Source: an uncultured Mediterraneibacter sp.
GTDB taxonomy: Bacteria; Bacillota; Clostridia; Lachnospirales; Lachnospiraceae
Length of the DNA stretch: 64,000 nt
Assembly (NCBI GenBank): GCA_944381935.1
Contig: CALWMN010000003.1
Coordinates: forward strand, 62,001 to 126,000
Direction of reading: 5' to 3'
Part shown: positions 37,742 through 53,055 of the stretch, piece after piece
How positions within the stretch are numbered: position 1 is the stretch's first letter
Layout of the letters: each line of letters opens with the position of its first letter
Notes under the pieces: model-generated
Told to the model about the DNA's origin: nothing
The model's database searches: none
The model's input: the letters and a program-made list of their open reading frames with translations, nothing else
Made by a program: the position numbers and the translations under genes

Positions 37742-38893
37742 ATGGAAAAATCAAAAGTATACTTCAGTGATCTGAGAGCGCTTCCGGGAACGAATGTACC
37801 GGAAAAACTGAAAAAACTGATCAAAAAAGCAGGGATAGGCGAGATTGACTTTGAGAAAAAAATGACAGCCATCAAAATCCACTTTGGGGAGCCGGGCAAT
37901 CTGTCCTTCCTGCGGCCAAACTATGCGAAGGCAGTTGCAGACGTTGTAAAGGAGCTCGGCGGGCGTCCTTTCCTTACAGACTGCAATACTCTTTACGTGG
38001 GAAGAAGAAAAGACGCGCTGGAGCATCTGGGTGCGGCTTATGAAAATGGGTTCAATATCCTGTCCACCGGATGCCATATTTTGATCGGGGACGGACTGAA
38101 AGGAACAGACGATGTATCTGTGCCGGTAAAGGGAGGGGAACTGGTAAAAGAAGCTAAGATCGGCAGAGCGGTTATGGACGCGGATATCTTTATCAGCTTA
38201 AGCCACTTTAAGGGACATGAGATAGCAGGATTCGGCGGCTGCATCAAGAATATTGGCATGGGCTGCGGCAGCCGTGCAGGGAAAATGGAGCAGCACAACA
38301 GCGGAAAGCCGTCTGTTGATACAGAACAGTGCACAGGCTGCCGTGTCTGTTCCAGGAACTGCGCCCACGGTGCGATCACGTTCCCTGAGAAAAAGGCAAG
38401 CATTAACCACGAGAAGTGCGTAGGCTGCGGCAGATGCCTGGGGGCCTGCAATTTTGACGCAATCTACAATGAAAATCCGTCTGCGGCAAAAGAGCTGAAT
38501 ATGAAGATGGCAGAGTATACGAAGGCAGTGGTGGACGGACGTCCCTGCTTCCACATCAGCCTGGTAATCGATGTATCGCCTTACTGCGACTGTCATGGGG
38601 AAAATGATGTCCCCATCCTGCCGGACGTCGGAATGTTTGCGAGCTTTGACCCTGTGGCGCTGGACCAGGCATGCGCTGATGCATGTAACGCGCAGAAACC
38701 GTTGCCGGGCAGCCTGCTGGATGAACATATGCATGCACATGGCTTTTGTGACCATCATGACCATTTCGTCAATACGACGCCGGAGAGTGAATGGGAGACC
38801 TGCCTGGAGCATGCCGAGAAGATCGGCCTGGGAACCAGGGAGTATGAGCTGATCGGAGTAGACGGGTCTGTTGATTTTCTGCAGAAACAGTAA
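37742..38893 (+). CDS. DUF362-domain ferredoxin protein
   Basis: A 383-residue cytosolic protein with an N-terminal DUF362 domain (VYFSDLRA..., KIHFGEPGN, ISLSHFKGHEIAGFGGCIKNIGMG) and two ferredoxin-type cluster motifs, CTGCRVCSRNC near residue 199 and CVGCGRCLGAC near residue 228. C-terminal histidines (DEHMHAHGFCDHHDH) could bind metal. Such proteins are widespread in anaerobes and presumed to carry electrons, but no reaction is established. AAAAGGAG precedes ATG 37742. The stop of the thioesterase gene lies 24 bases upstream, so the two may be cotranscribed. Confidence 0.85.
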   Translation: MEKSKVYFSDLRALPGTNVPEKLKKLIKKAGIGEIDFEKKMTAIKIHFGEPGNLSFLRPNYAKAVADVVKELGGRPFLTDCNTLYVGRRKDALEHLGAAYENGFNILSTGCHILIGDGLKGTDDVSVPVKGGELVKEAKIGRAVMDADIFISLSHFKGHEIAGFGGCIKNIGMGCGSRAGKMEQHNSGKPSVDTEQCTGCRVCSRNCAHGAITFPEKKASINHEKCVGCGRCLGACNFDAIYNENPSAAKELNMKMAEYTKAVVDGRPCFHISLVIDVSPYCDCHGENDVPILPDVGMFASFDPVALDQACADACNAQKPLPGSLLDEHMHAHGFCDHHDHFVNTTPESEWETCLEHAEKIGLGTREYELIGVDGSVDFLQKQ

Positions 38894-38940
38894 TACGGGA
38901 GTTTCAGGTTGAAAGAAGAGAGGAAGAGAGGATTGCAACA

Positions 38941-40311
38941 ATGAAGAGAGAAAGTTTTGGCTCCAGGATCGGCTTTATCCTGATTTCGGCAGGATGTGCC
39001 ATCGGTCTGGGGAATGTATGGAGATTTCCGTATATCACCGGACAGTATGGGGGAGCGGCATTCGTGCTGATTTATCTGGTATGCCTGGTGATCCTGGGAC
39101 TGCCGATCATGGTCATGGAGTTCTCGGTGGGACGTGCGGCAAGATCCAGTATCGCGCTGGCATTCGACAAGCTTGAGCCGGAACATACAAAATGGCACTG
39201 GTATAAATATTTTGGAATGGCAGGGAATTATCTGCTGATGATGTTCTACACGACAATAGGCGGATGGCTGCTTCTGTATCTGTTTAAAATGGCAGCCGGA
39301 AGCTTTGAGGGGATGGATACCGGGCAGATCCAGGGTGAATTTGGCAAGCTGATGGGACAGCCGGTTCTTATGGCTGTGTGTATGGTTGTTGTCGTGGTAA
39401 TGTGCTTTGGCATCTGCAGCATGGGACTACAGAAAGGTGTGGAAGGGATCACAAAGGTTATGATGGTGCTGCTCCTGGCGCTGCTGATCATCCTTGCAGT
39501 GCGGTCGATCACTCTCCCGGGAGCGGAGGCGGGCCTTGAGTTCTATCTCCTGCCTGATTTTGGGAAGATGAAGGAAGCCGGGGTCATGGAAGTTGTATCT
39601 GCGGCTATGGGACAGTCCTTCTTTACGCTAAGCCTGGGCATTGGAGCAATGGCAATTTTCGGAAGCTATATCGATAAGAGGAGGGCGCTGACAGGAGAGG
39701 CGGTCTGCATTACAGTGCTGGATACAAGCGTTGCGCTCATTTCCGGGTTGATCATTTTCCCGGCAAGCTTTGCCTTTGGGGTGAATCCGGACAGCGGGCC
39801 GAATCTTATCTTCATTACACTGCCGAATATTTTCAATTCCATGACGGGAGGCAGAGTATGGGGAGCGATTTTCTTCCTGTGCATGTTTTTTGCGGCGGCG
39901 TCAACGATCATCGCCGTATTTGAAAATATCATCGCGTTTGCTATGGATCTCACGGGCTGCTCACGAGGAAAGGCGGTTACAGTCAACCTGATTGCAATCA
40001 TCCTGCTTTCAATGCCCTGCGTGCTGGGATACAACGTGTGGAGCGGATTTGCGCCTCTGGGGGAAGGGACCGCGATCCTTGATCTGGAGGATTTCATTGT
40101 CAGCAATAACCTGCTTCCTCTCGGAAGCCTTGTCTATGTCCTTTTCTGTACGACAAGATACGGCTGGGGATGGAAGAACTTTCTGGCAGAGGCGAATACG
40201 GGAGATGGCCTGAAGTTCCCCAAATGGGTGAGGCTCTATGTAACTTTTGGAGTTCCACTGATCGTATTGTTTCTCTTTATACAGGGGTACTGGTCTAAAT
40301 TTGCAGGCTGA
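38941..40311 (+). CDS. neurotransmitter:sodium symporter family transporter
   Basis: A 456-residue NSS (SLC6-like) sodium-dependent transporter. The unwound first helix is clear, SAGCAIGLGNVWRFPYITGQYGGAAFVLIYL, which in LeuT binds substrate and sodium. Eleven to twelve helices follow. Bacterial members with about 450 residues carry tryptophan, tyrosine or other amino acids; the substrate here is not assignable. GAAGAGAGG precedes the start. It lies 47 bases after the DUF362 gene and is followed by a strong terminator. Confidence 0.93.
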   Translation: MKRESFGSRIGFILISAGCAIGLGNVWRFPYITGQYGGAAFVLIYLVCLVILGLPIMVMEFSVGRAARSSIALAFDKLEPEHTKWHWYKYFGMAGNYLLMMFYTTIGGWLLLYLFKMAAGSFEGMDTGQIQGEFGKLMGQPVLMAVCMVVVVVMCFGICSMGLQKGVEGITKVMMVLLLALLIILAVRSITLPGAEAGLEFYLLPDFGKMKEAGVMEVVSAAMGQSFFTLSLGIGAMAIFGSYIDKRRALTGEAVCITVLDTSVALISGLIIFPASFAFGVNPDSGPNLIFITLPNIFNSMTGGRVWGAIFFLCMFFAAASTIIAVFENIIAFAMDLTGCSRGKAVTVNLIAIILLSMPCVLGYNVWSGFAPLGEGTAILDLEDFIVSNNLLPLGSLVYVLFCTTRYGWGWKNFLAEANTGDGLKFPKWVRLYVTFGVPLIVLFLFIQGYWSKFAG

Positions 40312-40324
40312 TTCGCAGGAAAAA

Positions 40325-40359
40325 AAGAGGCGGTTCCTCGTTTTGAGGGACTGCCTCTT
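40325..40359. terminator. bidirectional terminator
   Basis: AAGAGGCGGTTCCTC (40325-40339) pairs with GAGGGACTGCCTCTT (40345-40359) with one or two mismatches, between convergent genes. Confidence 0.75.
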
Positions 40360-40374
40360 ATGTGATTGCTGTAA

Positions 40375-42138
40375 TTACTTTAAAATCCCCAACGCCATGT
40401 CGCGGAAAATCCCGGGGCGTTCGTTTAACTCACGGAAGGTCCCTCTCTCTACAATCTGCCCGCTATTCATCACAAGGATCTCATCGCAGTTCTGTAAAGT
40501 TGACAGCCTGTGGGCAATGGACAGGATGGTCGTCCCACACTCTTCTTTCATTTTCTCGATCTCTGCCTGAATAAGTTTTTCTGATGTATTATCCAGTGCT
40601 GAAGTTGCCTCATCCAGGATCAAAATCTTAGGTTTCCTCAAAAAAACACGTGCCAGGGCGATCCGCTGCCTTTGTCCTCCCGACAGGTTTTTTCCGCCTT
40701 CTGAAAGCATAAACTGGTAGCCCCCCGGAAGCCGTTCAATGTCGGGAGCGATATTCGCCTTTCTTGCGGCCTCTTTTACTTCGTCTAAGCTGACCTCCCC
40801 TTCGATCCCATAGCATATGTTATGATACACAGTGCCTGCGATCAGGAACGGAGACTGGGGAACAACCGCGACATAAAACGCCAGAGTTTTTCGGGATAAT
40901 TCACACAGGTTTATTCCTCCTAGCATAATATCCCCTTCCGCCTGTTCCAATTTGTCAATGACCTTGACCAATGTGGATTTCCCACATCCGCTTGGACCGG
41001 CAATGCCGATGAATTTCCCGCCCGGAATGGAAAGGCTTACATCTTTCAGGATCATCTGCTCTGGTTTTTCTGGATAGGAGAAGCTGATGTTATCCATCTG
41101 AATATCGTTATATGTTAACTCAGGATTCATAGAACCTGCCTGGCCCTGATAGGAAAAGTCCAGCGGGATATCCACCATTCGGAAATAGTCAGAAGCCAGG
41201 ACAGTACATTCTGAAAATTCATCCAGGATCCGGTGGAGTTCACGTAATGGTCCGGTTAATTGAGTGAAGCACAGATATGCCGTCAATACGGTGCCTACGG
41301 TAATGATGTTCCGGGAAGCCAGGAACACGGAGATACCGATCACAACAACACTGAACACAGCTTCATTGATAAATTTCAGGCAGTCATAGAATGCCATTGC
41401 TTTATGATGCCGCATTTCCTTTTTCCGGAGCTGCTCGGAGCAGGACTGTATCCGTTCGCCTTCTGTCTGTGCGCTGTCCAGTGTGCGGATGGTTTCGATG
41501 CCTCCCAGCAATTCCACCATTGTACCGTCCAGATCTGCTTTTGTTTCCATCAGTTCTACACGGATTCCTTTCTGAGTACTGATCTGGCGGAATACGATAA
41601 AGGTACCGACAGGGATCACCAGGATGACCATACAGGCAACGGCTGCCGGAAGCTGCAGAAAAATCGTCACGATCGCGGCTGCCCCTGTAGTCAGGGCAGG
41701 GGCGAAGTCCATGAACAAAAGCTTGATCAGCTTTACTGTTCCTTCCAGGCTTCGGTTCAGCCGTCCATGAATGTTGCCTGTCATATGGCTCCTGAAATAA
41801 GACAGCGGCGCAAGCAGCAGGGATACCGCTGCCTTTTGCCGCGCTTTTTTCTCGGTCTGGGTTGCGGTATCCTCCACGATCAGGCGTCGAACCACTTTAA
41901 TCACTTCATTTACAATGCTTACAAGAAGTATGGCAAGAAGGGTTGGGACAACAGATAGAAAATCGGCCGGGGTCCCTGCCAAAATGCTGTCAGTGAGGTA
42001 CCCTACTGCAAGTGGGGTGAACTGGCTTAAAACAGCCGATATGCCCAGAATAATTAAAATTATAAAAAAACCCATTTTCTGTTTTGCCGGAAGCAGGTTA
42101 AAGATTTTTTTCCAAATTACTTTTGAATTTCTCTGCAT
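40375..42138 (-). CDS. ABC exporter, fused membrane and ATPase domains
   Basis: A 587-residue half-transporter of the type I exporter fold. Six membrane helices occupy residues 20-310 and the nucleotide-binding domain residues 345-585. Walker A is GPSGCGKST, the signature LSGGQRQRIALARVFL and Walker B ILILDEATSALD. It would act as a homodimer, since no partner half is adjacent. Substrates of such MsbA/LmrA-like pumps include drugs, lipids and peptides. It lies 82 bases downstream of the broken permease tail, possibly once in the same transcription unit. Confidence 0.9.
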   Translation of the reverse strand: MQRNSKVIWKKIFNLLPAKQKMGFFIILIILGISAVLSQFTPLAVGYLTDSILAGTPADFLSVVPTLLAILLVSIVNEVIKVVRRLIVEDTATQTEKKARQKAAVSLLLAPLSYFRSHMTGNIHGRLNRSLEGTVKLIKLLFMDFAPALTTGAAAIVTIFLQLPAAVACMVILVIPVGTFIVFRQISTQKGIRVELMETKADLDGTMVELLGGIETIRTLDSAQTEGERIQSCSEQLRKKEMRHHKAMAFYDCLKFINEAVFSVVVIGISVFLASRNIITVGTVLTAYLCFTQLTGPLRELHRILDEFSECTVLASDYFRMVDIPLDFSYQGQAGSMNPELTYNDIQMDNISFSYPEKPEQMILKDVSLSIPGGKFIGIAGPSGCGKSTLVKVIDKLEQAEGDIMLGGINLCELSRKTLAFYVAVVPQSPFLIAGTVYHNICYGIEGEVSLDEVKEAARKANIAPDIERLPGGYQFMLSEGGKNLSGGQRQRIALARVFLRKPKILILDEATSALDNTSEKLIQAEIEKMKEECGTTILSIAHRLSTLQNCDEILVMNSGQIVERGTFRELNERPGIFRDMALGILK

Positions 42139-42220
42139 GGTGTATCATACCTCACTTATGCAATGATCATATCAACAATAATACACCAGCTTTATGCAGT
42201 TGAAAATATTTTTTTAGGAG

Positions 42221-42326
42221 TCATCCTCTTTTTTTGTATGATTTTTCCAAGGCTCCGATCACGGCATACAGCACCATCGCCATGACACACAGCAAGAGGA
42301 TAGACATGAGCAGCCAGTTCATCTTG
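42221..42326 (-). pseudogene. C-terminal end of the split ABC permease
   Basis: On the minus strand from the element boundary the sequence reads FKMNWLLMSILLLCVMAMVL then YAVIGALEKSYKKRG and a TGA stop (42221-42223). This is the last transmembrane helix and basic tail of a SsuC/TauC-type permease, the piece missing from the truncated permease at 46871-47587. It has no start signal of its own. If the 4,569-bp insertion is removed, it joins codon 230 of the upstream part in frame as QV-FKMNW, giving 265 residues, normal for the family. Confidence 0.88.
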
Positions 42327-42344
42327 AAGAGGCGTGCAGGCATT
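42311..42344 (+). other. left attachment site (attL) of the recombinase element
   Basis: The host half (CAGCCAGTTCATCTTG) is followed by core AA at 42327-42328 and the element arm GAGGCGTGCAGGCATT (42329-42344). The arm is the mirror of the right-end arm at 46880-46895 in 14 of 16 positions, and similarity continues outward to a shared GATATC. Confidence 0.85.
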
Positions 42345-42404
42345 CTGATATCATATGATATCTATGATTTTCTTATCATTGATACGGCAGCATCTTTTGC
42401 TGTG

Positions 42405-44162
42405 CTATGTGCTGGAAACCTGCCTGATTTTAAATCGTCCGATCTCTGAACGAATATTTTCCGCATCCCCAAGCAGCTGCTGTGTAGCTGCGGTAGTCTC
42501 CTCGCTGGATGCAGCGTTTTGTGACACAATGGCAGAGATACGGGTTATCTCATCTCCAATCTTGCTGATATGTTCCTGCTGGTCCTGGGATGCAGTGGCA
42601 ATTTCCTTCATTACCTGAGTGATCTGGGATGACTTGGAGACGATTTCATCAAATGTATGCTTGGCCTTGTCAGCCAGTTTATTTCCCTGCATCGATTTCT
42701 GAATCATCGTTTCAATAATATTCCGGCTCTGCTCCGCAGCTTCGGCGGATTTTGCTGCCAGATTTCCCACTTCATCTGCCACAACGGCAAATCCCTTTCC
42801 TGAAATTCCTGCACGCGCTGCCTCTACTGCCGCATTGAGCGCCAGAATATTAGTCTGGAAGGCGATATCATCAATGGATTTCATAACAGAGGCTACCTGC
42901 TCCGAGGAAGAATTGATATCGCGGACCGCATCCCCCAGGGTTGTCATGTGATCTTTTCCTTCCTGCACTGCCTGTTCCATACCTGCAATCTCATCAAAGG
43001 CATGCCTGGAACGTCCTGCATTCTGGATAGCCAGTTTATTTGCCTCTTTTGCGTAGCCGGAAAGATCCTCCACTGCCGAAGACTGGGTACAGCAGCTGTC
43101 GGCCAGAGCCTGGCTGGCTGTGGATATGTTTGCCGCCTCGCTTGCCACAGACTTTGATATCTGTGAGAGCTGAGAGAATACATTATTGTTCTGGCATACA
43201 AGATAACTAAGGCTTTTGCCCAGTCTGTCGCCCTGTGAGCGCACTCTGGAAGTAACTGTGAAATCACCGTCTGCAATCTGCTCGATTGTATCTGAATTTT
43301 CCCTTGTGGCATTCACCATTATCTGGAACGAGTCCATCATCCGGTTTATCTCCGTTGTGCTACCCTTCCAAAGATCTCCACTTTCTATATCCAGGTTATC
43401 GATTCCGGTTGAGATCTCTTTGAGCCAATTCGACATCTTCAGAATCGGCTCTGATATCTTGCTGGAGAGCCGATGGCCAATCAGCAGCGAAACGGCAATC
43501 GCCCCTATGCCAATCAGCAGCAGTATAGCTTGTGTGATGAGAGCCATAGTCCTGGCCTTTTCCCTTGTATTTTCGGCGATTCCCTGCAGCCGGCTGCTGA
43601 TTGCATCCAACCCTTCACCAATGGTCACTACCTTCGGTTTAAATTCACTTGTATAACGAGTATAGGCCGCTTCCTTGTCTGTTCGGCTTAATTCCGTAAG
43701 CTCGGCAGCCTGCAGGTGAATCTCCTCGTGAGGCCCTATGATCCCATTAAGGCTTTCGGCAATCTGGGGATCGCTCATAAGCTCGGCGCCGGCACCGTTG
43801 ATCCATTGGCCGAGCGCACATGTTTCAGGATCAAGGCTCCCTGCAAAATCGGCGCCGGTGGTGATAGAATCACTGAGCTGCTCCAGCCATTTGTAATGTG
43901 CCGCAATGACAGACTGTGCTTCCTGCTGTTGATCCTGGTATAATGCGACATCTTCATATTCCCGACGTATTATAGTCATCATTAAAGCGGAAATAACAAC
44001 GAGAAGAAGCACGATACCGGAAAAAAGGAAATATCCTTTAAATATCTGATTCTGGATTGTCTTTTCCTGACGCTTTTTAGCGTGATATTTTTCCTCGCGG
44101 CTGCTATGATTTTCTTTTGGCATATTATGTTTCTTTCTTCCTTTTGCTGCTATTTGAAACAC
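42405..44162 (-). CDS. methyl-accepting chemotaxis protein with CZB-like sensor
   Basis: A 585-residue chemoreceptor encoded inside the mobile element. Helix TM1 spans about residues 43-65 and TM2 208-229. The extracytoplasmic sensor between them contains HYKW (His89), CALGQW (Cys115) and PHEEIH (His145, His149), the His-Cys-His-His arrangement of CZB zinc-binding domains. A HAMP-like region and a coiled-coil signalling domain follow, with the CheA/CheW-binding tip [23 protein letters not shown] 44162 has AAGGA at 6 bases; ATG 44123 is an alternative start. It probably signals to a host CheA; methylation-helix glutamates are present. The stop lies 61 bases from the left arm. Confidence 0.9.
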
Positions 44163-44455
44163 ATCCTTTCCTTTTTCCCTGCTTTTGCAGTCTGCCTCGG
44201 ATTATTGCCGTATAATATAGCTTGGTCTTCGGCATTTTTCGATATTTTCTTTATATTTTACCTTTCTTTTCATAGAAATGTCAACAATAGGAAGCATTTA
44301 TATTTACAAATTAAATTTTGAGAAGGATACCGAAGAACAGAGGGAGAAATTATATTTGCATTTATTGTAGAATAAAGGCATACAAATAATGTAAAAAGAC
44401 GGAACAGCATGGCATGCCCCAAAATGGGAAAATCAAGAAGGAAAGGGATGAAAAT

Positions 44456-44575
44456 ATGCTGTGGGAGAAGATAATTATGATAAAGCTTGCTGAACTTCTC
44501 TCCCGGGAGAATCTGATCAGCCCGGATGAGCAGGTGCGGTTCGTCCGGGAGGTCCGGGAAGGTGAGAAAGGCTGA
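44456..44575 (+). CDS. small ORF coupled to the recombinase
   Basis: A 39-residue ORF beginning MLWEKIIMIKLAELLSRENL and ending EVREGEKG. GGAAAGGG lies about 9 bases upstream, and its stop overlaps the recombinase start as TGATG, so the two are translationally coupled. Short ORFs of this kind often precede recombinase genes in Lachnospiraceae mobile elements. A role as regulator or directionality aid is possible but not shown. Confidence 0.6.
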   Translation: MLWEKIIMIKLAELLSRENLISPDEQVRFVREVREGEKG

Positions 44576-46413
44576 TGTTTCGTGCGGTCATATATGCCCG
44601 GTGCAGTACGGAGGAAGAGAGGCAGATAGACGCCCTGAAAAAACAGGTGGAGGAAGCTAAGGCCTGTGTGGGGGAAAATGGCTGGATTCTGGTGGACGCT
44701 TATGTGGAGAGCCGCTCGGGGACATCAACAAAGGGCAGGATGGAATACAACCGTCTCTATGGGGACCTGCTCTGCGATAAGTTCGATATCATTGTAATCA
44801 AATCCCAGGACAGACTCATGCGCAATACAAAAGACTGGTATCTCTTTGTTGACCGTATGTGTGCGGAGCAGAAGCGGCTATATATCTATATTGAGAGGAA
44901 ATTCTACACGGCAGACGATGCCCTGATCACCGGGATCAAGGCGATCCTGGCAGAGGAATACAGCAGGGAACTAAGTAAGAAGATTAACAACTCCCACAGG
45001 AACCGCCAGAAAAATAACGGAACTGTAATTCTGACATCCAATACATACGGTTATCGTAAGCTTCCAGATAAAAGTGTCGTCCTGGATGAAGAGGAGGCAA
45101 AGATCAAGCGGCTCATGTACGAATTGTGCGCTGCAGGTTTTGGCAGCAGGATGATTTCAAAGATCCTTCAAAACGACGGGATTTATAACCGGAACGGCAA
45201 ACCGTTTACAGATTCTGCAATCCTAAGAATCCTCCGCAATCCTTTAAATAAAGGGACCGCCGTAATGAACCGGACACACTTTGATTTTGAGACAAAGAAG
45301 ACAATAAGAGTGCCGGAAGAAGAGCGGTTTGTGTACGAAAATAAAGTGCCAAGAACCGTATCGGATGAGTTATGGGAACTGGCGAACCAGGAGATTGACA
45401 AAAGAGCGGCGGGTGTTCATGGAAAGAACGGGGAGAAAAGGGGAAAATATAAGGGGAAATCTCACCTGAGCGGTAAGATATACTGTGGCCTGTGCGGAGC
45501 ACCCTACTACAGGAGAACAAGAAAGCGATACCGGGATGGGGAAACTGTTTACGAATGGAAATGCAGACGGTATCTGGAGACGGGACGCAGCCGCAGGGTA
45601 TCGGACAGACCGCGGGTGAGAAAAGCAGAGTCGGAAAGCGTGGAAGGCTGTGACAATATTCATCTGGATGAAGGGATGCTGTATCAGTTCCTGGAGCAGG
45701 TATGCAGGGAGCATTATCAGGTTGACAGGGATCAGATTGTCCGGGATATGATGCGGGTGCTGCGGTGTTCTCTAAGAGATAAAGATTACGAGCCGGAAAT
45801 CAAGAGGGCAAACAGGGAGAGAGACAGGCTAAGAGGACAGATGAGCCGCCTGGCAGATAAACTCCTGGATGGAGTCATTTCAGATGAAACTTACAGGGGA
45901 AAACAGAACGACTTGGAAAAAAAGCAGGAGGAATTATGTGGAAAACTCTCAGATTTAGAGAGGAAAAAGGGGAAGGGCAATACGGTGGAGAAACGGCTTG
46001 GGAATATCGAAAGATTTCTTTTGGAAGGACCGGCTGTTGAAAAAGCCGCAGTGACCGGAATGCTGGAAGATATCGAAAAAATACTTATATATCCCGGTTA
46101 TATGGAACTTCAATTTGGAATGTTCAGCACTGCCGTAACCGCAATGCCCGGAACTTCGGAAGAGGCAGAAAGAAAGACGCTTAGAATCGAGTATGGCAAT
46201 CTGTTTAATTACAGGGAAAGGAAACGGAAAGAGAGGGAACGGGTTGTGGATATGATCCGGGACAATCCGAAGATTACGGCAAAAATGATAGCCGCCCGAT
46301 CAGGATGCAGTCTGTCCGGGGCAAACTATAAGCTGAAAGCTTTAAAAAGAGAGGGAAGAATTAAATTTGTCGGAAGAGGCGGAAAAGGAGAGTGGAAAAT
46401 TTTAAGGGAATAA
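44575..46413 (+). CDS. large serine recombinase with C-terminal winged helix
   Basis: A 612-residue site-specific recombinase. The N-terminal resolvase domain (residues 3-150) has catalytic Ser11 in YARCSTEEE and arginines in SQDRLMRNT. The recombinase domain follows (about 160-270), then a zinc ribbon starting CGLCGAP near residue 303 and a long charged coiled coil (residues 405-475). The last 55 residues form a separate winged-helix motif, VVDMIRDNPKITAKMIAARS with a basic wing GRIKFVGRGG, unusual for this family. It is the only recombinase in the element and presumably made the insertion, cutting at AA within the mirrored arms. Confidence 0.93.
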   Translation: MFRAVIYARCSTEEERQIDALKKQVEEAKACVGENGWILVDAYVESRSGTSTKGRMEYNRLYGDLLCDKFDIIVIKSQDRLMRNTKDWYLFVDRMCAEQKRLYIYIERKFYTADDALITGIKAILAEEYSRELSKKINNSHRNRQKNNGTVILTSNTYGYRKLPDKSVVLDEEEAKIKRLMYELCAAGFGSRMISKILQNDGIYNRNGKPFTDSAILRILRNPLNKGTAVMNRTHFDFETKKTIRVPEEERFVYENKVPRTVSDELWELANQEIDKRAAGVHGKNGEKRGKYKGKSHLSGKIYCGLCGAPYYRRTRKRYRDGETVYEWKCRRYLETGRSRRVSDRPRVRKAESESVEGCDNIHLDEGMLYQFLEQVCREHYQVDRDQIVRDMMRVLRCSLRDKDYEPEIKRANRERDRLRGQMSRLADKLLDGVISDETYRGKQNDLEKKQEELCGKLSDLERKKGKGNTVEKRLGNIERFLLEGPAVEKAAVTGMLEDIEKILIYPGYMELQFGMFSTAVTAMPGTSEEAERKTLRIEYGNLFNYRERKRKERERVVDMIRDNPKITAKMIAARSGCSLSGANYKLKALKREGRIKFVGRGGKGEWKILRE

Positions 46414-46495
46414 CCGACAGTCGCGAAGATTGCCGGTTTCTCCTGCCGACATAAATTTGGAAAAGAATAGAGAAGGACAAAGGAATATGATATAA

Positions 46496-46810
46496 TTAAA
46501 AAACGATCAGGAAGATATACAAAAAGGATTGAACGCTTGCCAGGAGGCTGCCCGGATCGACAGAGAGTTCTGCTTAAAAATGCGGATTGCAGATTATATC
46601 TTAAATAACAATGGCCGCCATGAGCAGAACTGGGGATTCTTTATGGATAATGCCAGTGGCAAAATAACAGGTTATTGTCCTTTGTTCGACCACGACCATG
46701 CTTTTGTGAATTATGGCAATGTGATGTCTTAGACAACGGAATTAAAGGCAAATGGGTTTCATGTAAGTCGTCAGGCCGAAGAGCTGGTTTTAAAATATGC
46801 AGATGCATAA
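46496..46810 (+). pseudogene. broken HipA-like kinase C-terminal fragment
   Basis: An open frame from 46496 reads RIADYILNNNGRHEQNWGFF, which corresponds to the catalytic loop of HipA-type kinases (N-x-DRHxxN), but with Gly in place of the catalytic Asp. It continues PLFDHDHAF, matching the metal-binding region, then meets TAG at 46730, after which 25 more in-frame residues follow to TAA at 46808. There is no start codon with a ribosome site. The N-terminal two thirds are absent. It is a decayed toxin-kinase or Fic/HipA-like gene captured at the right end of the element. Confidence 0.65.
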
Positions 46811-46870
46811 TAATACAGTGAGGACATGCCCAAAATCATGTCCTTGCCGTATTTTACAGACGATATCACA

Positions 46871-47587
46871 TCATAACCAAATGCCTGCACAGCTCAACAC
46901 CTGGCTTGAATAGATGATCAGATATCCCAGTCCGCTCCGCGCTGCCAGAAATTCTCCGATTACCACACCTACAAGGCACAGCCCGATATTTACTTTCATG
47001 TTACTTATTATAGAGGGAATGGAACCGGGCAGAACGACTTTGGTCAGAACATGCCTTCGGTTTCCATGCAGCGTATAGATCAGTTTGATCTTCTCCTGGT
47101 CTACAGAAGTGAAGCTTGTGTACAGATTCATGATACTGCCGAAGAGGGCGACTGACATTCCGGCGACGATGATAGTAGTCGGAGTAGCTCCAAGCCAGAC
47201 GATGAGCAGAGGCGCCAGGGCAGATTTCGGGAGGCTGTTCAGCACGACAAGGTAAGGCTCCATAATTTCTGAGAGCCTGCGGCTGCACCAGAGAAGAACT
47301 GCGGCGAGTATACTGACAAGTGTGACCAGAAGAAAGCTGGCGATTGTCTCGTACAGTGTGATCCAGATATGGAGGAAAATGGAGCGGTCCAGCACCATCT
47401 CCCAGAAACACAGAACAATTCTTGACGGACTGCTGAAAATGAAAGAATCAATTATGCCCGTGTCGGCGCAGAGCTCCCACAGGCAGAGAAAACAGACAAG
47501 GATCATGATCCGTGCGATGCGGACAGTGAGGTGCCGCCGTTTCAGAGAGCGGAGGAACAGATCCTGCTCACGGGAGATTTTGTTCAT
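46871..47587 (-). pseudogene. ABC permease (SsuC/TauC type), truncated by insertion
   Basis: This is the first 230 codons of a nitrate/taurine-type permease, plus 8 codons read into the mobile element before a TGA. Five hydrophobic helices are visible and the EAA-like loop near residue 165 reads LYTSFTSVDQEKIKLIYTLHG. The final helix and tail lie 4.5 kb away at 42221-42326. The start overlaps the ATPase gene by 20 bases. The protein as encoded lacks its sixth helix and is probably inactive. Substrate classes for the family include taurine, sulfonates, nitrate and thiamine precursors. Confidence 0.9.
46880..46912 (+). other. right attachment site (attR) of the recombinase element
   Basis: The element arm AATGCCTGCACAGCTC (46880-46895) is followed by core AA (46896-46897) and the host half CACCTGGCTTGAATA. 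On the minus strand the host half encodes YSSQV, the last native residues of the upstream permease part. Confidence 0.85.
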
Positions 47588-48347
47588 CGTGATTCAACTC
47601 CTTCCAGATTTTATTGAAATATGTTTTAAATTCCGGCGCATTTCTGCGGTTCATAGGCGTATCCTTTTCCAGAGAAAAGGATACGGGGACAATACAGGAG
47701 ATAGACGCCGGCCGTTTTGTCAGGACAATGGTCCGGTCTGAGAGGCTGACAGCTTCGGATAAATCATGTGTCACCAGAAGCGCTGTCTTGCCGGAACGGC
47801 GGATGATCTGCCCGATATCATCACTGACTGTGAGCCTGGTCTGATAGTCCAGGGCGGAGAATGGTTCATCGAGCAGGAGCAGTTCGGGATCGAGCAGGAG
47901 GGTCCGTATCAGTGCCGCCCTCTGTCTCATGCCTCCGGAGAGCTCAGAGGGCCTGGAACTGGCGAACTGTTTCAATCCATACTGCTCAAGGAGCGCATCT
48001 GCTTTTGCCTTCGTATGGCTGTTCAGCCTGCCGCCAATCTCAAGACCGAGTATGACGTTTTTGTATACGCTGCGCCACTCAAAGAGATGGTCATGCTGAA
48101 GCATATATCCGATGTTTGGTGAATTATCCGTAAGAGGTCTTCCGTTTAGCAGGATTTCCCCTGCCTCCGGCTCCATGAGCCCGCATATAAGAGAAAGCAG
48201 CGTAGATTTGCCGCATCCCGAGGGACCTACTACGGCTGTAAATTCTCCGGGAGTCAGGGCAAAAGAAATATCGGACAGGGCTTTTGTTTCCCCATCCGGT
48301 GTATGGTAAGAATAACGGATATTTTTTAATTCCAGAATAGGTTCCAT
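47568..48347 (-). CDS. ABC transporter ATPase (SsuB/TauB type)
   Basis: A 259-residue nucleotide-binding subunit. Walker A is GPSGCGKST near residue 40, signature LSGGMRQRAALIRTLL, and Walker B LLLLDEPFSALD. It is the partner of the downstream split permease, overlapping it by 20 bases. No substrate-binding protein gene is found on either side of the locus, so it may lie elsewhere or be lost. With the permease broken, this ATPase is an orphan. The start at 48347 has a weak site (GGAAGTGAC). Confidence 0.9.
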   Translation of the reverse strand: MEPILELKNIRYSYHTPDGETKALSDISFALTPGEFTAVVGPSGCGKSTLLSLICGLMEPEAGEILLNGRPLTDNSPNIGYMLQHDHLFEWRSVYKNVILGLEIGGRLNSHTKAKADALLEQYGLKQFASSRPSELSGGMRQRAALIRTLLLDPELLLLDEPFSALDYQTRLTVSDDIGQIIRRSGKTALLVTHDLSEAVSLSDRTIVLTKRPASISCIVPVSFSLEKDTPMNRRNAPEFKTYFNKIWKELNHDEQNLP

Positions 48348-48448
48348 ATAGTCACTTCCATCCGTAAGGTATCTCTATAGTTTAATGTATGAAAAAAGAA
48401 GTTTTACGTGCAGAACGCGCAGGAAATTCAAAGGGGGAGAGAAACCGC

Positions 48449-49078
48449 ATGATTAATATTAATTACCAGAAGGAGCTTGAAAAGCTGTTAGATGAGATTG
48501 AAAGGAGCGCAGAAGCGCCGTCGCTTCTGCTGCATAGCTGCTGTGCGCCGTGCAGCAGCTATGTACTGGAATACCTGTCAAAGTATTTCAGGATTACCAT
48601 TTTTTACTATAATCCCAATATCTACCCGGAGAATGAGTACTGGAAGCGGATTGACGAGCAGAAGAAGCTTTTGGGAGAAATGGAGTTTACGCATCCTGTT
48701 TCGTTTTTGGCAGGGGATTATGAGAAGGAGCGTTTCTATGAGATGGCGGCAGGAATGGAGGATCTAAAGGAGGGAGGCGCAAGATGTATGAAGTGTTATG
48801 AGATGCGTCTTTTGGAGGCGGCGAAGAAAGCTGCGGAAGGCGGGTTCGATTATTTCACGACGACGCTGAGCATCAGTCCGATGAAAAACGCACAGAAGCT
48901 AAACGAGATCGGGCAGAGTGCAGGCAGAAAATACGGTGTGAAATATCTTGCGTCGGATTTCAAGAAAAAGAACGGATACAAACGCTCAATTGAGCTGTCA
49001 AAAGAGTATGGGCTGTACCGGCAGGATTACTGCGGATGTGAATTTTCTTTTGTCCGGAGGCGCAGAGAGGAGTTGTGA
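48449..49078 (+). CDS. queH: epoxyqueuosine reductase QueH
   Basis: A 209-residue protein of the QueH (DUF208) family, which reduces epoxyqueuosine in tRNA to queuosine, replacing QueG in many Firmicutes. The cluster and metal cysteines are LLHSCCAPCSSY near residue 28 and the C-terminal QDYCGCEFS. A further CMKCYEMRL and FTTTLSISP region are family-typical. ATG 48449 is chosen, with AAGGGGGAG upstream. It is divergent from the ABC ATPase gene and appears monocistronic. Confidence 0.93.
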   Translation: MININYQKELEKLLDEIERSAEAPSLLLHSCCAPCSSYVLEYLSKYFRITIFYYNPNIYPENEYWKRIDEQKKLLGEMEFTHPVSFLAGDYEKERFYEMAAGMEDLKEGGARCMKCYEMRLLEAAKKAAEGGFDYFTTTLSISPMKNAQKLNEIGQSAGRKYGVKYLASDFKKKNGYKRSIELSKEYGLYRQDYCGCEFSFVRRRREEL

Positions 49079-49204
49079 TTTATTCATCACTTTTCAGTTT
49101 GCAGTAGACATTCAGGACTTCACTGTGATAAACTAAGTGGATAATGCAGAATTGTTTAGGAAACCATACTGCATGAAGAATCGGTTTAGAAAAGAGGGAA
49201 TGAG

Positions 49205-50608
49205 ATGGCACAGTTATGGGGCGGCCGTTTTACAAAAGAAACGGATCAACTTGTTTATAATTTCAACGCTTCGATCTCTTTTGACCAGCGCTTCTACAGA
49301 CAGGATATAGAAGGAAGCATTGCCCATGTCGACATGCTGGAGAGGCAGGGGATTCTGACGGGGGAAGAGAAGACACAGATCACAGAAGGACTCAGGGGTA
49401 TCCTGCATGATGTGGAAGAGGGAACCCTTGAGATCACAGATGAGTATGAGGATATCCACAGCTTTGTGGAAGCAAATCTGATTGAGCGGATCGGGGATGC
49501 AGGAAAGAAACTCCACACCGGAAGAAGCAGGAACGACCAGGTCGCGCTGGATATGAAGCTGTACACACGTGACGAGATCACAGAGCTTGACGGACTTCTA
49601 AGAGAGCTTCTGGAAGTGCTCCTGAAACTGATGAAGGAGAACCTGGATACGTACATGCCGGGGTTTACCCATCTGCAGAAGGCACAGCCGGTCACGCTTG
49701 CCCATCATCTGGGTGCATATTTTGAGATGTTTAAGCGGGACCGTTCAAGAATGAAAGATATTTATAAGAGAATGAACTATTGCCCGCTCGGCGCAGGAGC
49801 GCTTGCGGGGACGACTTATCCGCTGGACAGGGAGTATACTGCCAGGCTTCTCGGGTTTGACGGGCCGACACTCAACAGCATGGATTCCGTGTCGGACCGG
49901 GACTATCTGATCGAGCTGCTCTCGGCGATGTCCACGGTGATGATGCATCTGAGCAGATTCTCTGAGGAGATCATCATCTGGAACAGCAACGAATATCAGT
50001 TCATTGACCTCGACGATGCATACAGTACGGGAAGCAGCATTATGCCGCAGAAAAAGAATCCGGATATTGCGGAGTTGGTCCGCGGCAAGACGGGAAGAGT
50101 GTATGGGGCGCTGACGTCCCTGCTGACCACGATGAAAGGGCTGCCCCTGGCATATAATAAGGATATGCAGGAGGACAAGGAGCTTGTATTCGACGCAATC
50201 GATACGACGAAGGGATGCCTTGCACTGTTTACGGGGATGATCCAAACGATGAAGTTCAATCGTAACAGAATGGAGGACAGTGCAAAGCACGGCTTTACCA
50301 ATGCGACGGATGCAGCGGACTATCTTGTCAACCACGGCGTGCCGTTCAGGGATGCCCACGGGATTGTGGGAAGGCTTGTGCTGTACTGCATTGAGAAGAA
50401 CATTGCGCTGGATGATATGACGCTGGAAGAGTTCAAATCGGTCTCACCGGTATTTGAGGGAGATATCTACGATGCGATCAGCATGAAGACCTGCGTGGAT
50501 GCAAGAAACACGGTGGGGGCGCCGGGAGAGTCGGCTATGGAAAACGTGATCGCCCTGGAGGAGGAATACCTTCGGACTGAAGCGGCTTTAAAGCAGAATA
50601 AGCGATAA
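49205..50608 (+). CDS. argH: argininosuccinate lyase ArgH
   Basis: A 467-residue member of the fumarase/aspartase superfamily that cleaves argininosuccinate to arginine and fumarate. Signature segments are LWGGRF at the N-terminus, [27 protein letters not shown]-like [18 protein letters not shown], and the mobile catalytic loop [12 protein letters not shown]. The length is exact for the family. AAGAGGGAATG precedes the ATG. No argG is adjacent in the window. Confidence 0.97.
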
Positions 50609-50654
50609 AAAGGGAAAATTTACTTTAGAGAAGAGAAGGAAAAGGAGAAAAAAG

Positions 50655-51740
50655 ATGGAACAGAAATTGAAGGCAGGAATACTTGGGGCAACAGGAATGG
50701 TGGGGCAGAGATTTATCTCCCTGCTGGAGAACCACCCCTGGTTTGAGGTTGTGACAGTGGCGGCAAGCCCGCGCTCGGCAGGCAAAACTTATGAGGAGGC
50801 GGTGGGGGACCGCTGGAAAATGGACACTCCCATGCCGGAGGCAGTCAAGAAGCTTGTGGTGCTCAATGTAAATGAGGTGGAAAAGGTGGCTTCTACCGTT
50901 GATTTTGTATTCAGCGCGGTGGACATGACAAAGGATGAGATCAAGGCAATCGAGGAGGCATATGCAAAAACAGAGACACCGGTCGTATCGAACAACAGCG
51001 CCCACCGCTGGACGCCGGACGTTCCGATGGTTGTGCCGGAGATTAACTCGGCGCATTTTGACGTCATCCCGGATCAGAAGAAGAGGCTCGGGACAACGCG
51101 CGGATTTATCGCCGTGAAACCGAACTGTTCGATCCAGAGCTATGCCCCGTGCCTTGCCGCATGGGAGGAGTTTGGACCGAAAGAGCTTGTCGTGACGACC
51201 TATCAGGCAATCTCGGGCGCCGGGAAGACGTTTAAGGACTGGCCCGAGATGGAGGGGAATATCATTCCGTTTATCGGCGGAGAGGAAGAGAAGAGCGAGC
51301 AAGAGCCGCTCCGGGTGCTGGGCAGAGTGGAGAACGGCGAGATCGTGAAGGCACAGCTCCCGAAGATCACATGCCAGTGCGTGCGGGTTCCGGTGCTCAA
51401 CGGCCATACGGCAGCGGTTTTCATTAATTTTGAGAAGAAGCCGACAAGGGAGCAGCTCATCGAGAAGCTTGTGGATTTTAAGGGCTTCCCGCAGGAGGCA
51501 GGACTTCCCAGCGCCCCGGAGCAGTTCATCCAGTATCTTGAGGATGACAACCGTCCGCAGGTAACGCTGGATGTGGATTATGAAAAAGGAATGGGCGTAT
51601 CGATCGGACGTCTGAGAGAGGATACGATGTTTGACTTTAAGTTCATCGGACTGTCTCATAACACGGTAAGGGGAGCGGCAGGCGGCGCCGTACTGTGTGC
51701 AGAGGCGCTGACGGCAAAGGGATATATTGCAAAAAAGTAA
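50655..51740 (+). CDS. asd: aspartate-semialdehyde dehydrogenase (archaeal/fungal-type)
   Basis: A 361-residue NADPH-dependent enzyme making aspartate semialdehyde for the lysine, threonine and methionine pathways. The Rossmann motif is GATGMVGQRFI, the catalytic Cys lies in VKPNCSIQS and a substrate His in NGHTAAV. Length, the PNCSIQ motif and the SEQEPLRVLG stretch resemble the archaeal/fungal subgroup rather than the E. coli type. It follows argH by 46 bases and precedes leuCD by 40; thrC lies 3.3 kb on, giving an amino-acid biosynthesis cluster. Confidence 0.95.
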   Translation: MEQKLKAGILGATGMVGQRFISLLENHPWFEVVTVAASPRSAGKTYEEAVGDRWKMDTPMPEAVKKLVVLNVNEVEKVASTVDFVFSAVDMTKDEIKAIEEAYAKTETPVVSNNSAHRWTPDVPMVVPEINSAHFDVIPDQKKRLGTTRGFIAVKPNCSIQSYAPCLAAWEEFGPKELVVTTYQAISGAGKTFKDWPEMEGNIIPFIGGEEEKSEQEPLRVLGRVENGEIVKAQLPKITCQCVRVPVLNGHTAAVFINFEKKPTREQLIEKLVDFKGFPQEAGLPSAPEQFIQYLEDDNRPQVTLDVDYEKGMGVSIGRLREDTMFDFKFIGLSHNTVRGAAGGAVLCAEALTAKGYIAKK

Positions 51741-51780
51741 AATCTGACAGACAGATCATATGATAAGGAGGCTGATTCCT

Positions 51781-53055
51781 ATGGGAATGACAATGACACA
51801 GAAAATACTGGCTGCCCATGCAGGCGTCGATTCTGTTGAGGCAGGGCAGCTTATTGAGGCGAAGCTTGACGTGGTCATGGCAAATGACATCACCGGTCCA
51901 ATGGCTCTGCCGATTATCAGGCAGATGTCGGATCATGTCTTTGACAGGGATAAGGTTGTGTTCGTGCCGGATCATTTTACGCCGAACAAAGACATCAAGT
52001 CAGCAGAAAACTCCAAGGCGATCCGGGAGTATGCAAAGGAACAGGGACTGACCTGGTATTTTGAGCAGGGGAAGTCGGGGGTGGAGCATGCGATCCTACC
52101 GGAGGCAGGTGTTGTGACTGCGGGAGAGTGCATCATCGGCGCGGATTCCCACACCTGTACATACGGCGCTCTGGGAGCGTTTTCCACCGGGATGGGGACA
52201 ACGGACGTGGCGACAGGAATGGCGACAGGTGAAATCTGGTTTAAGGTTCCCAGCGCGATTAAGTTTGTCCTGACCGGAAAGCCGGGGAAATATGTGAGTG
52301 GAAAAGATATCATCATCCATATCATCGGGAAGATCGGAGTGGATGGAGCGCTCTATAAATCTATGGAATTTACCGGAGACGGAATTGCAAACCTGTCAAT
52401 GGACGACAGGTTTACGATCGCCAATATGGCGATTGAGGCGGGGGCGAAAAACGGGATTTTCCCGGTGGATGAAAAGACGGAAGCCTATATAAAGGAACAT
52501 TCCAAGAAGCCCTATGCCATCTATGAGGCCGACGCGGACGCCCAGTATGACGAAGTGATTGACATTGATCTTTCTCAGGTGCGTCCGACAGTGGCATTTC
52601 CCCATCTTCCGGGAAATGCGAAGACGATTGATGAAGTGGAGGCAATGGAGCCGATCAAGATCGACCAGGTGGTCATCGGGTCCTGTACGAACGGGCGGAT
52701 GGAGGATATGAGGAAAGCGGCAGCCATCCTGAAAGGGCGGACGGTTCATCCAGACGTCCGCGTTATGGTTGTCCCGGCGACACAGAAGATCTATAAACAG
52801 TGTATTGAGGAAGGGCTTCTCGAGATCTTTGTAGATGCGGGATGTGCGGTCAATACCCCAAGCTGCGGTCCGTGTATGGGCGGGCATATGGGCGTTATGG
52901 CGGCAGGAGAAAAATGCGTCTCTACTACGAACAGAAATTTTGTGGGCCGGATGGGGCATGTGGATTCCCTGATCTATCTGGCGTCACCGGAAGTGGCTGC
53001 GGCAAGCGCGATTGCCGGATATATTGCAAATCCAGAGAAAGTAGGTGAGGCATAA
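51781..53055 (+). CDS. leuC: 3-isopropylmalate dehydratase large subunit LeuC
   Basis: A 424-residue aconitase-superfamily subunit that binds the [4Fe-4S] cluster and interconverts 2- and 3-isopropylmalate in leucine synthesis. Cluster cysteines are in VIGSCTNGR near residue 299 and [12 protein letters not shown] near residue 359. Its length (shorter than E. coli LeuC) marks the archaeal/clostridial type. ATG 51781 follows AAGGAGG at 9 bases; an earlier ATG at 51760 overlaps that site. leuD begins directly after its stop. Confidence 0.95.

Follow-up and report, generated by a model that had tools for sequence, protein, structure and literature searches.

The 64,000-nucleotide window analyzed here (bases 62001 to 126000 of contig C3 in G000, the 3.04-Mb genome of an uncultured Mediterraneibacter sp.) contains an ABC transporter permease gene that is split by a 4,569-bp segment encoding a large serine recombinase. 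We interpret this segment (42329..46897, one core-to-core unit delimited by the AA-to-AA spacing) as an integrated mobile cassette of that recombinase, inserted at permease codons 230-231, and assign this reading a probability of about 0.94. Judged by sequence, the element has defined boundaries, empty counterparts, a site used clade-wide, varied cargo among its relatives, and a record of host exchange in some pairs.

The permease head (codons 1-230) lies on the minus strand at 46898..47587 and reads on for 8 codons into the element, to a stop at 46871, and the displaced tail (codons 231-265 plus the stop codon; 42221..42328, minus strand) joins the head in frame. Core comparison placed an AA dinucleotide (TT in the permease sense) at 42327..42328 on the left and at 46896..46897 on the right. 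The first-pass annotation of this DNA had described a 4,569-bp element with exact attachment (att) sites, and the AA cores and their spacing were confirmed to the base, as was its claim that removal rejoins codon 230 to the displaced tail in frame: the joined flanks encode a 265-residue permease with the junction SSQV-FKMNW. Written in the permease sense, attB is CAGGTG-TT-CAAGATG and the element contributes CCTC-TT-GAGCTG. Because TT alone is common to attB and the element there, the crossover is fixed to two bases, and the sharing of AA alone by attB and attP beside the crossover fits the 2-bp crossover predicted for serine recombinases. The element ends in an inverted-repeat pair of attP arms (42329..42362 and 46862..46895, both given on the plus strand) reported to mirror each other on both sides of AA; recomputation returned the same 27 of 34 positions, with 14 of the innermost 16 complementary by eye. 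This mirroring is not a product of chance, as shuffling one arm 100,000 times never gave 27 matches. The features of a large-serine-recombinase element, namely, a 2-bp core, a mirrored attP, and an attB in empty relatives, are all present. The guanine-plus-cytosine content of the element is 46.1%, compared with 49.5% and 50.4% in the 4.5 kb on each side.

Uninterrupted counterparts of the permease gene occur within the genus, which was sampled as 58 genomes with one genome per species. The permease was listed at ≥69% identity in 51 of the 58 and was intact through the junction, by full-length alignment, in 26 of them; it was also intact in G060, which belongs to another genus of the family. 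Eight of the 58 (G000, G011, G033, G049, G051, G052, G055, and G056) have the gene split after codon 230 with TT. A further 16 have permease open frames of at least 264 codons, judged by frame length only, and one copy is cut by a contig edge; an open frame by itself is weak proof of an intact permease, as G011 is split yet reads 270 codons. Recombinases of this family were found at an E value of 1e-60 or better in 6 of the 58 genomes; five of these genomes have it on the contig that bears the split permease, and G033 has it on a small separate contig. The five recombinases other than that of the window are 57 to 79% identical to it. Two outcomes had been named beforehand as fatal to the insertion model, namely, the lack of any empty site in relatives and the origin of the displaced tail from another permease. 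Both were looked for: the permease is uninterrupted in 27 loci of 27 genomes, and the tail aligns to the same permease gene.

The recombinase gene (44575..46413, plus strand) encodes a protein of 612 amino acids with matches above cut-off to PF00239 (Resolvase N-terminal), PF07508 (Recombinase), and PF13408 (zinc ribbon). Large serine recombinases carry the catalytic serine within an RxS motif, and R9-C10-S11 is invariant in all six aligned recombinases, as are the zinc-type residues C304, C307, C330, and C359. At the C terminus (about residues 546-609) lies a predicted winged helix that matches HTH_24 (E value, 7.6e-5). The last 65 residues are predicted to fold as helix-helix-helix-strand-strand, with a predicted local distance difference test (pLDDT) score of 72-90 for this block, in a structure model that is otherwise only fair (mean pLDDT, 66.7; predicted template modeling score, 0.37). 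The integrase of phage SPbeta (YokA/SprA; PDB 9dxh and 9dxd) was the longest sequence match in the PDB (residues 17-498), although 3g13, a shorter chain, had a slightly better E value. It was also the best match in Foldseek, followed by PhiC31 integrase; TM-scores were low (about 0.2) because domain packing in the recombinase model is poor. The SPbeta enzyme differs in being phage borne, and the winged helix of the window recombinase lies beyond the matched part.

A family scan, in which an alignment of the six recombinases was compared with 84,980 genomes, each from a different species, returned 70 loci; L143 (spurious, with 65 residues matched) and L151 to L153 (300 bases or less) were dropped from the family counts. 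In a quick tree, 68 large serine recombinases form one group (Shimodaira-Hasegawa-like approximate likelihood ratio test, 99) whose hosts are almost all Lachnospiraceae-like genomes, the other 67 members being 41 to 79% identical to the window recombinase over their best segments. A permease piece lies near the recombinase in 63 of the 68 loci. The remaining five (L076, L086, L095, L099, and L117) are on contigs of only 3.1 to about 12.2 kb, and L117 was scored as having none found despite a 25-codon permease match at the contig edge. No permease piece accompanies the nine relatives outside the clade (L130, L138, and L144-L150; six distinct and three duplicates), including L130, L144, and L147, for which 10 kb is in view on each side. 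Because 63 of 68 clade members and none of nine outside relatives stand beside a permease piece, we conclude that one clade uses one address. Counting the window, TT forms the core in all 58 heads and all 38 tails that could be read. Since TT belongs to Phe codon 231, finding it conserved in the tails says little by itself; more telling is the head side, where unrelated sequence starts right after TT and the breakpoint is exact. Arm mirroring in the 33 elements with both ends visible averaged 20.0 of 34 positions (range, 10-27), compared with 13.8 when arms were wrongly paired and 9.2 when they were shuffled. The winged-helix profile was found in 66 of the 68 clade members (all but L110 and L123) and in none of the nine relatives outside.

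Comparisons of recombinases with the permease heads of their hosts point to movement of elements. The recombinases of L108 and L140 are 92% identical and their heads 77%, and among L124, L126, and L127 synonymous distances are 0.05-0.27 for the recombinase versus 0.15-0.81 for the head (0.27 versus 0.76 for L126/L127). The discordance also runs in the other direction, with heads 94 to 95% and recombinases 75 to 77% identical among L077, L078, and L081, and heads 93% and recombinases 51% identical between L128 and L129. Together with the empty sites, such discordant pairs show that elements have been gained, lost, and replaced. The 33 elements with both ends visible span 2,549 to 11,137 bp, the upper range being limited by the 10-kb flanks, and longer ones occupy the same site in G055 (about 26.5 kb) and L080 (about 18 kb). 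Among 146 mechanically called open reading frames (ORFs) of at least 90 codons in their cargo, 103 Pfam families were matched at 1e-5. The commonest were AMP-binding enzymes, ABC transporters, and response regulators (6 ORFs each), followed by AAA_21 and the PD-(D/E)XK nuclease family (5 each), and parts of pyruvate-ferredoxin oxidoreductase occurred in 3. PADLOC models matched in the cargo include AriA, mad3, and AbiLi, as single-model matches that are not called systems.

A 39-codon gene directly upstream of the window recombinase (44456..44575, plus strand) is a candidate directionality factor gene; its stop overlaps the recombinase start (TGATG), and the same frame also runs without a stop from an ATG at 44414. 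A profile made from 12 copies, which as seeds match by construction, detected this micro-protein of about 40 residues upstream of the recombinase in 63 of 68 clade loci but in none of the nine loci outside the clade and none of 16 controls (sequence preceding the longest open frame at loci of unrelated recombinases). The micro-protein stop lies within about 56 nucleotides of the recombinase start in 55 of these 63 loci. The gene is under purifying selection, with proportions of nonsynonymous (pN) and synonymous (pS) differences of 0.138 versus 0.505 over 22 pairs, and four members that were scanned had no Pfam or PHROGs match below 0.05. Known serine-integrase directionality factors are often small proteins, SprB having 58 residues.

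In the mechanism that we propose, the recombinase would join a circular form of the element (attP, with its mirrored arms around AA) to attB at permease codons 230-231, an integration that would yield attL and attR, split the permease gene, and presumably need the recombinase alone. The protein encoded before the recombinase may, with even odds, turn the reaction to excision, the C-terminal winged helix may add DNA binding or self-regulation, and passage from cell to cell would probably depend on other elements or DNA uptake.

Several observations weigh against this reading or against parts of it. No circular form or excision was seen, one exact-match scan of viral contigs gave 0 matches to the attP junction, and no transfer gene was recognized in the window element, where the origin of transfer was not searched for. 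Recombinase and permease identities are correlated (0.65 over 1,596 pairs), and recombinase and head are equally diverged in L114/L132, L115/L118, and L074/L094; on account of this correlation and these equal divergences, related hosts tend to carry related elements, and much of the history is host bound. L110 sits at the permease site without a winged helix and without the micro-protein, which the profile search also did not find in L093, L107, L131, and L133, and in 8 of the 63 loci that have it the micro-protein stop is >60 nucleotides from the recombinase start. The directionality role, argued from linkage and coding constraint, is itself an even bet, with a leader peptide or an accessory subunit as alternatives. 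Finally, clade members were collected by their recombinases and with flanks of 10 kb or less, which left five of them impossible to judge and means that long elements are undercounted.

A different view of the split is that it serves gene control, the element being a reversible switch like skin or gin whose excision in response to a cue (growth phase, sporulation, or nutrient) rebuilds the permease. We consider this unlikely, although the displaced tails lend it some weight. The window permease frame can be restored on removal, as programmed gene-intervening elements with regulated excision would need. All 58 readable heads and all 38 readable tails are stop free, as are nine further tails located at other places in eight clade-member genomes; displaced tails have no start codon of their own and cannot be translated in that position. 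Recombinase and head have diverged equally in L114/L132 (synonymous p, 0.22 and 0.26) and L115/L118 (0.64 and 0.62), and the displaced tails of these two pairs hold 7.2 nonsynonymous changes over 142 sites (pS, 0.44 and 0.71), versus about 82 changes expected at the synonymous rate. If these elements were inherited in place, the tail has been selected while displaced and hence has been rebuilt at times. However, the members of each pair share little beyond the recombinase, with differing cargo and lengths; separate insertions by host-bound relatives are as likely, and the constraint could predate insertion. Among the other four of the six same-clade pairs compared singly, the L126/L127 element is younger than the host split, L083/L084 are too close to tell, and synonymous sites are saturated in L080/L085 and L125/L136. 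The pooled ratio of nonsynonymous to synonymous substitution is 0.09 in displaced tails versus 0.15 in intact tails; synonymous sites are close to saturated, and the low value for displaced tails largely measures time before insertion.

Permease tails also occur in other arrangements. In G004 (L050, 266-1506), an intact permease and a terminator are followed by about 1 kb with two short genes (by eye, a nucleotidyltransferase and a HEPN-like gene), and a second permease tail (100 of 105 bases alike) stands behind a typical element arm. We read this as the trace of an earlier insertion or of a repair; an intact permease with a leftover second tail, as if repaired by another route, speaks against a switch. 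In G152 (L190, 3069-12154), a single contig holds three permease-tail-like pieces at spacings of 3.4 to 5.5 kb, an arrangement like that of composite cassette arrays. These scars suggest that hosts regain the permease by other routes too. A broader account would portray the clade as cargo cassettes that all use a single dedicated address in gut Lachnospiraceae, each with a recombinase that has a winged-helix module and a directionality protein of about 40 residues; occupancy would be switched back and forth, the transporter would be rebuilt on exit, and selection on the displaced end would be the trace of this. We hold this account to be doubtful.

It is quite improbable that the window element is a decayed prophage or conjugative element reduced to an integrase and one passenger gene. 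Larger elements do exist at the same site, including that of L080 (about 18 kb) and that of G055, with RecT, YqaJ, and a HerA-like ATPase, and MT836003.1, deposited as a phage clone, holds a split permease. However, the 33 delimited elements mostly have multigene cargo, and no capsid, terminase, or relaxase was present among the 25 commonest of the 103 Pfam families, among the 25 commonest of 53 PHROGs, or in the Pfam matches of ten G055 proteins. The window element has no phage structural genes, only the chemoreceptor, recombinase, and micro-protein genes and a fragment. The phage label of MT836003.1 is doubtful because the scaffold bears a bacterial permease. In this unverified clone from human feces (L193, 7785-10898), the best match among phage records, the permease head and tail lie about 2.3 kb apart, and its recombinase matches at 59% identity over 45% of the query (residues 2-277 only), the match ending just before the tail; the record probably represents bacterial DNA that carries a shortened member of the family, and it was kept out of the clade counts. 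A viral home for the clade was rejected on seven long viral-contig matches, 38 to 45% identical and all outside the clade, and three further viral-contig matches (32 to 65% over 83-93 residues at contig ends) were unplaced in the tree; a plasmid home was rejected as well, the best plasmid match being only 36% identical. That there was no insertion, the permease being naturally two genes or the split an assembly error, is hardly credible: one genome per species leaves a second strain of the source species unseen, but congeners have the permease intact, and 57 other loci have the head broken at the same base.

The nearest known life-style is that of a staphylococcal cassette chromosome (SCC)-type cassette with one fixed address, a kind already known. 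SCC and the enterococcal cassette chromosomes (ECC) insert at the end of rlmH and are not known to have transfer genes of their own. The likeness lies in the large serine recombinase, the single fixed chromosomal address, and the very variable cargo. In contrast to SCC and ECC, the address here is an ABC permease gene rather than the rlmH end, the gene is split and not restored, and a single recombinase with a winged helix is accompanied by an upstream micro-protein. CcrB was the best NCBIfam match of the recombinase, at 79.4 bits, far short of the curated cut-off of 900.

The gin element, which lies in gerE of Bacillus cereus, is a 28.6-kb element with three recombinases that is excised in sporulation, and the directionality factor GirX is encoded beside GirC (PMC5595907). 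Like the window element, it is nonphage, its serine recombinase splits a coding gene, its att site is an inverted repeat, and a factor (here a candidate) lies beside the recombinase; unlike gin, the window element has 4.6 kb, one recombinase, and no known trigger. Durrant et al. (2022; PMC10083194) describe numerous, varied recombinases that all target a single conserved intragenic site, as in their prolyl isomerase case, and a single intragenic site common to diverse large serine recombinases is found here too; their main text does not contain "permease," "transporter," or "Lachnospir." Single-address recombinase families inside genes are known, as are elements that interrupt a gene and later excise from it, and the clade-specific architecture may prove a variant. 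Literature searches, which did not extend to subscription journals, preprints, or supplements, turned up no description of this permease as an integration address.

The natural attB/attP pair, defined to the base, and the 68 recombinases with one target make for a clean, testable system, and the tightly linked micro-protein offers a candidate directionality factor. The retrieval of directionality factors for newly found recombinases is a future direction named by Durrant et al. (PMC10083194). The clade also points to a common docking site at which gut Lachnospiraceae acquire sensors, transporters, enzyme operons, and defense-like genes.

The interrupted transporter retains its ATP-binding subunit gene next to the permease head (47568..48347, minus strand; PF00005, E value of 3.3e-36). 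The permease had been called SsuC/TauC type; a match to PF00528 bears out the general class, but scores were far below the curated SsuC, TauC, and SaoP cut-offs, so that no label firmer than "SsuC/TauC-like" is warranted. Three other ideas about the target were discarded. An element-coded substitute for the lost permease end is not seen, the appended codons being short or non-membrane-like by eye and differing between elements; no Rfam match at gathering score, as an RNA-regulated transporter would lead one to look for, lies close to the permease of the window or to that of six intact-permease loci; and no tRNA gene lies within 38000-52000.

The window element had been said to carry almost nothing but a chemoreceptor. 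The chemoreceptor is there, but so are the 39-codon gene and a 67-codon fragment (46529..46732, plus strand) that is weakly PI3/PI4-kinase-like (PF00454, E value of 5.7e-4, below cut-off; HipA-like by eye) and is probably a remnant; weak pieces resembling it also occur in L084 and L092. The receptor gene (42405..44162, minus strand; GTG start listed, with an ATG at residue 14) encodes a methyl-accepting chemotaxis protein (MCP; PF00015, E value of 1e-37) with the zinc-binding CZB domain (PF13682, E value of 1.2e-8), and no PADLOC model matched. Its orthologues in G039, G012, and G041 are 82%, 80%, and 77% identical, two of them adjoin another chemoreceptor, and no recombinase of this family is present in the 9 to 14 kb fetched around the three. 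The receptor is probably passenger cargo derived from a chromosomal gene of the genus. As the G000 genome has four additional MCP matches as well as four matches to CheW, we infer that the element's receptor can plausibly join a working array.

Some cargo of other elements recurs. L109, L119, and L133, from three species, have same-sized cargo genes in the same order, and the three ferredoxin oxidoreductase and three sodium:solute symporter entries in the cargo tally probably come from these loci. The 26.5-kb G055 element (L061/L062) encodes RecT, YqaJ, and an AAA ATPase with OLD-like matches. A gene for a HerA-like ATPase lies just upstream of the recombinase in L074, L086, L089, L103, L106, and L141, the family being called in G055 only. 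In G033, G055, and G056, the HerA-like gene is preceded by a partner gene of 386 to 596 codons, and the two are perhaps a transfer or partition module.

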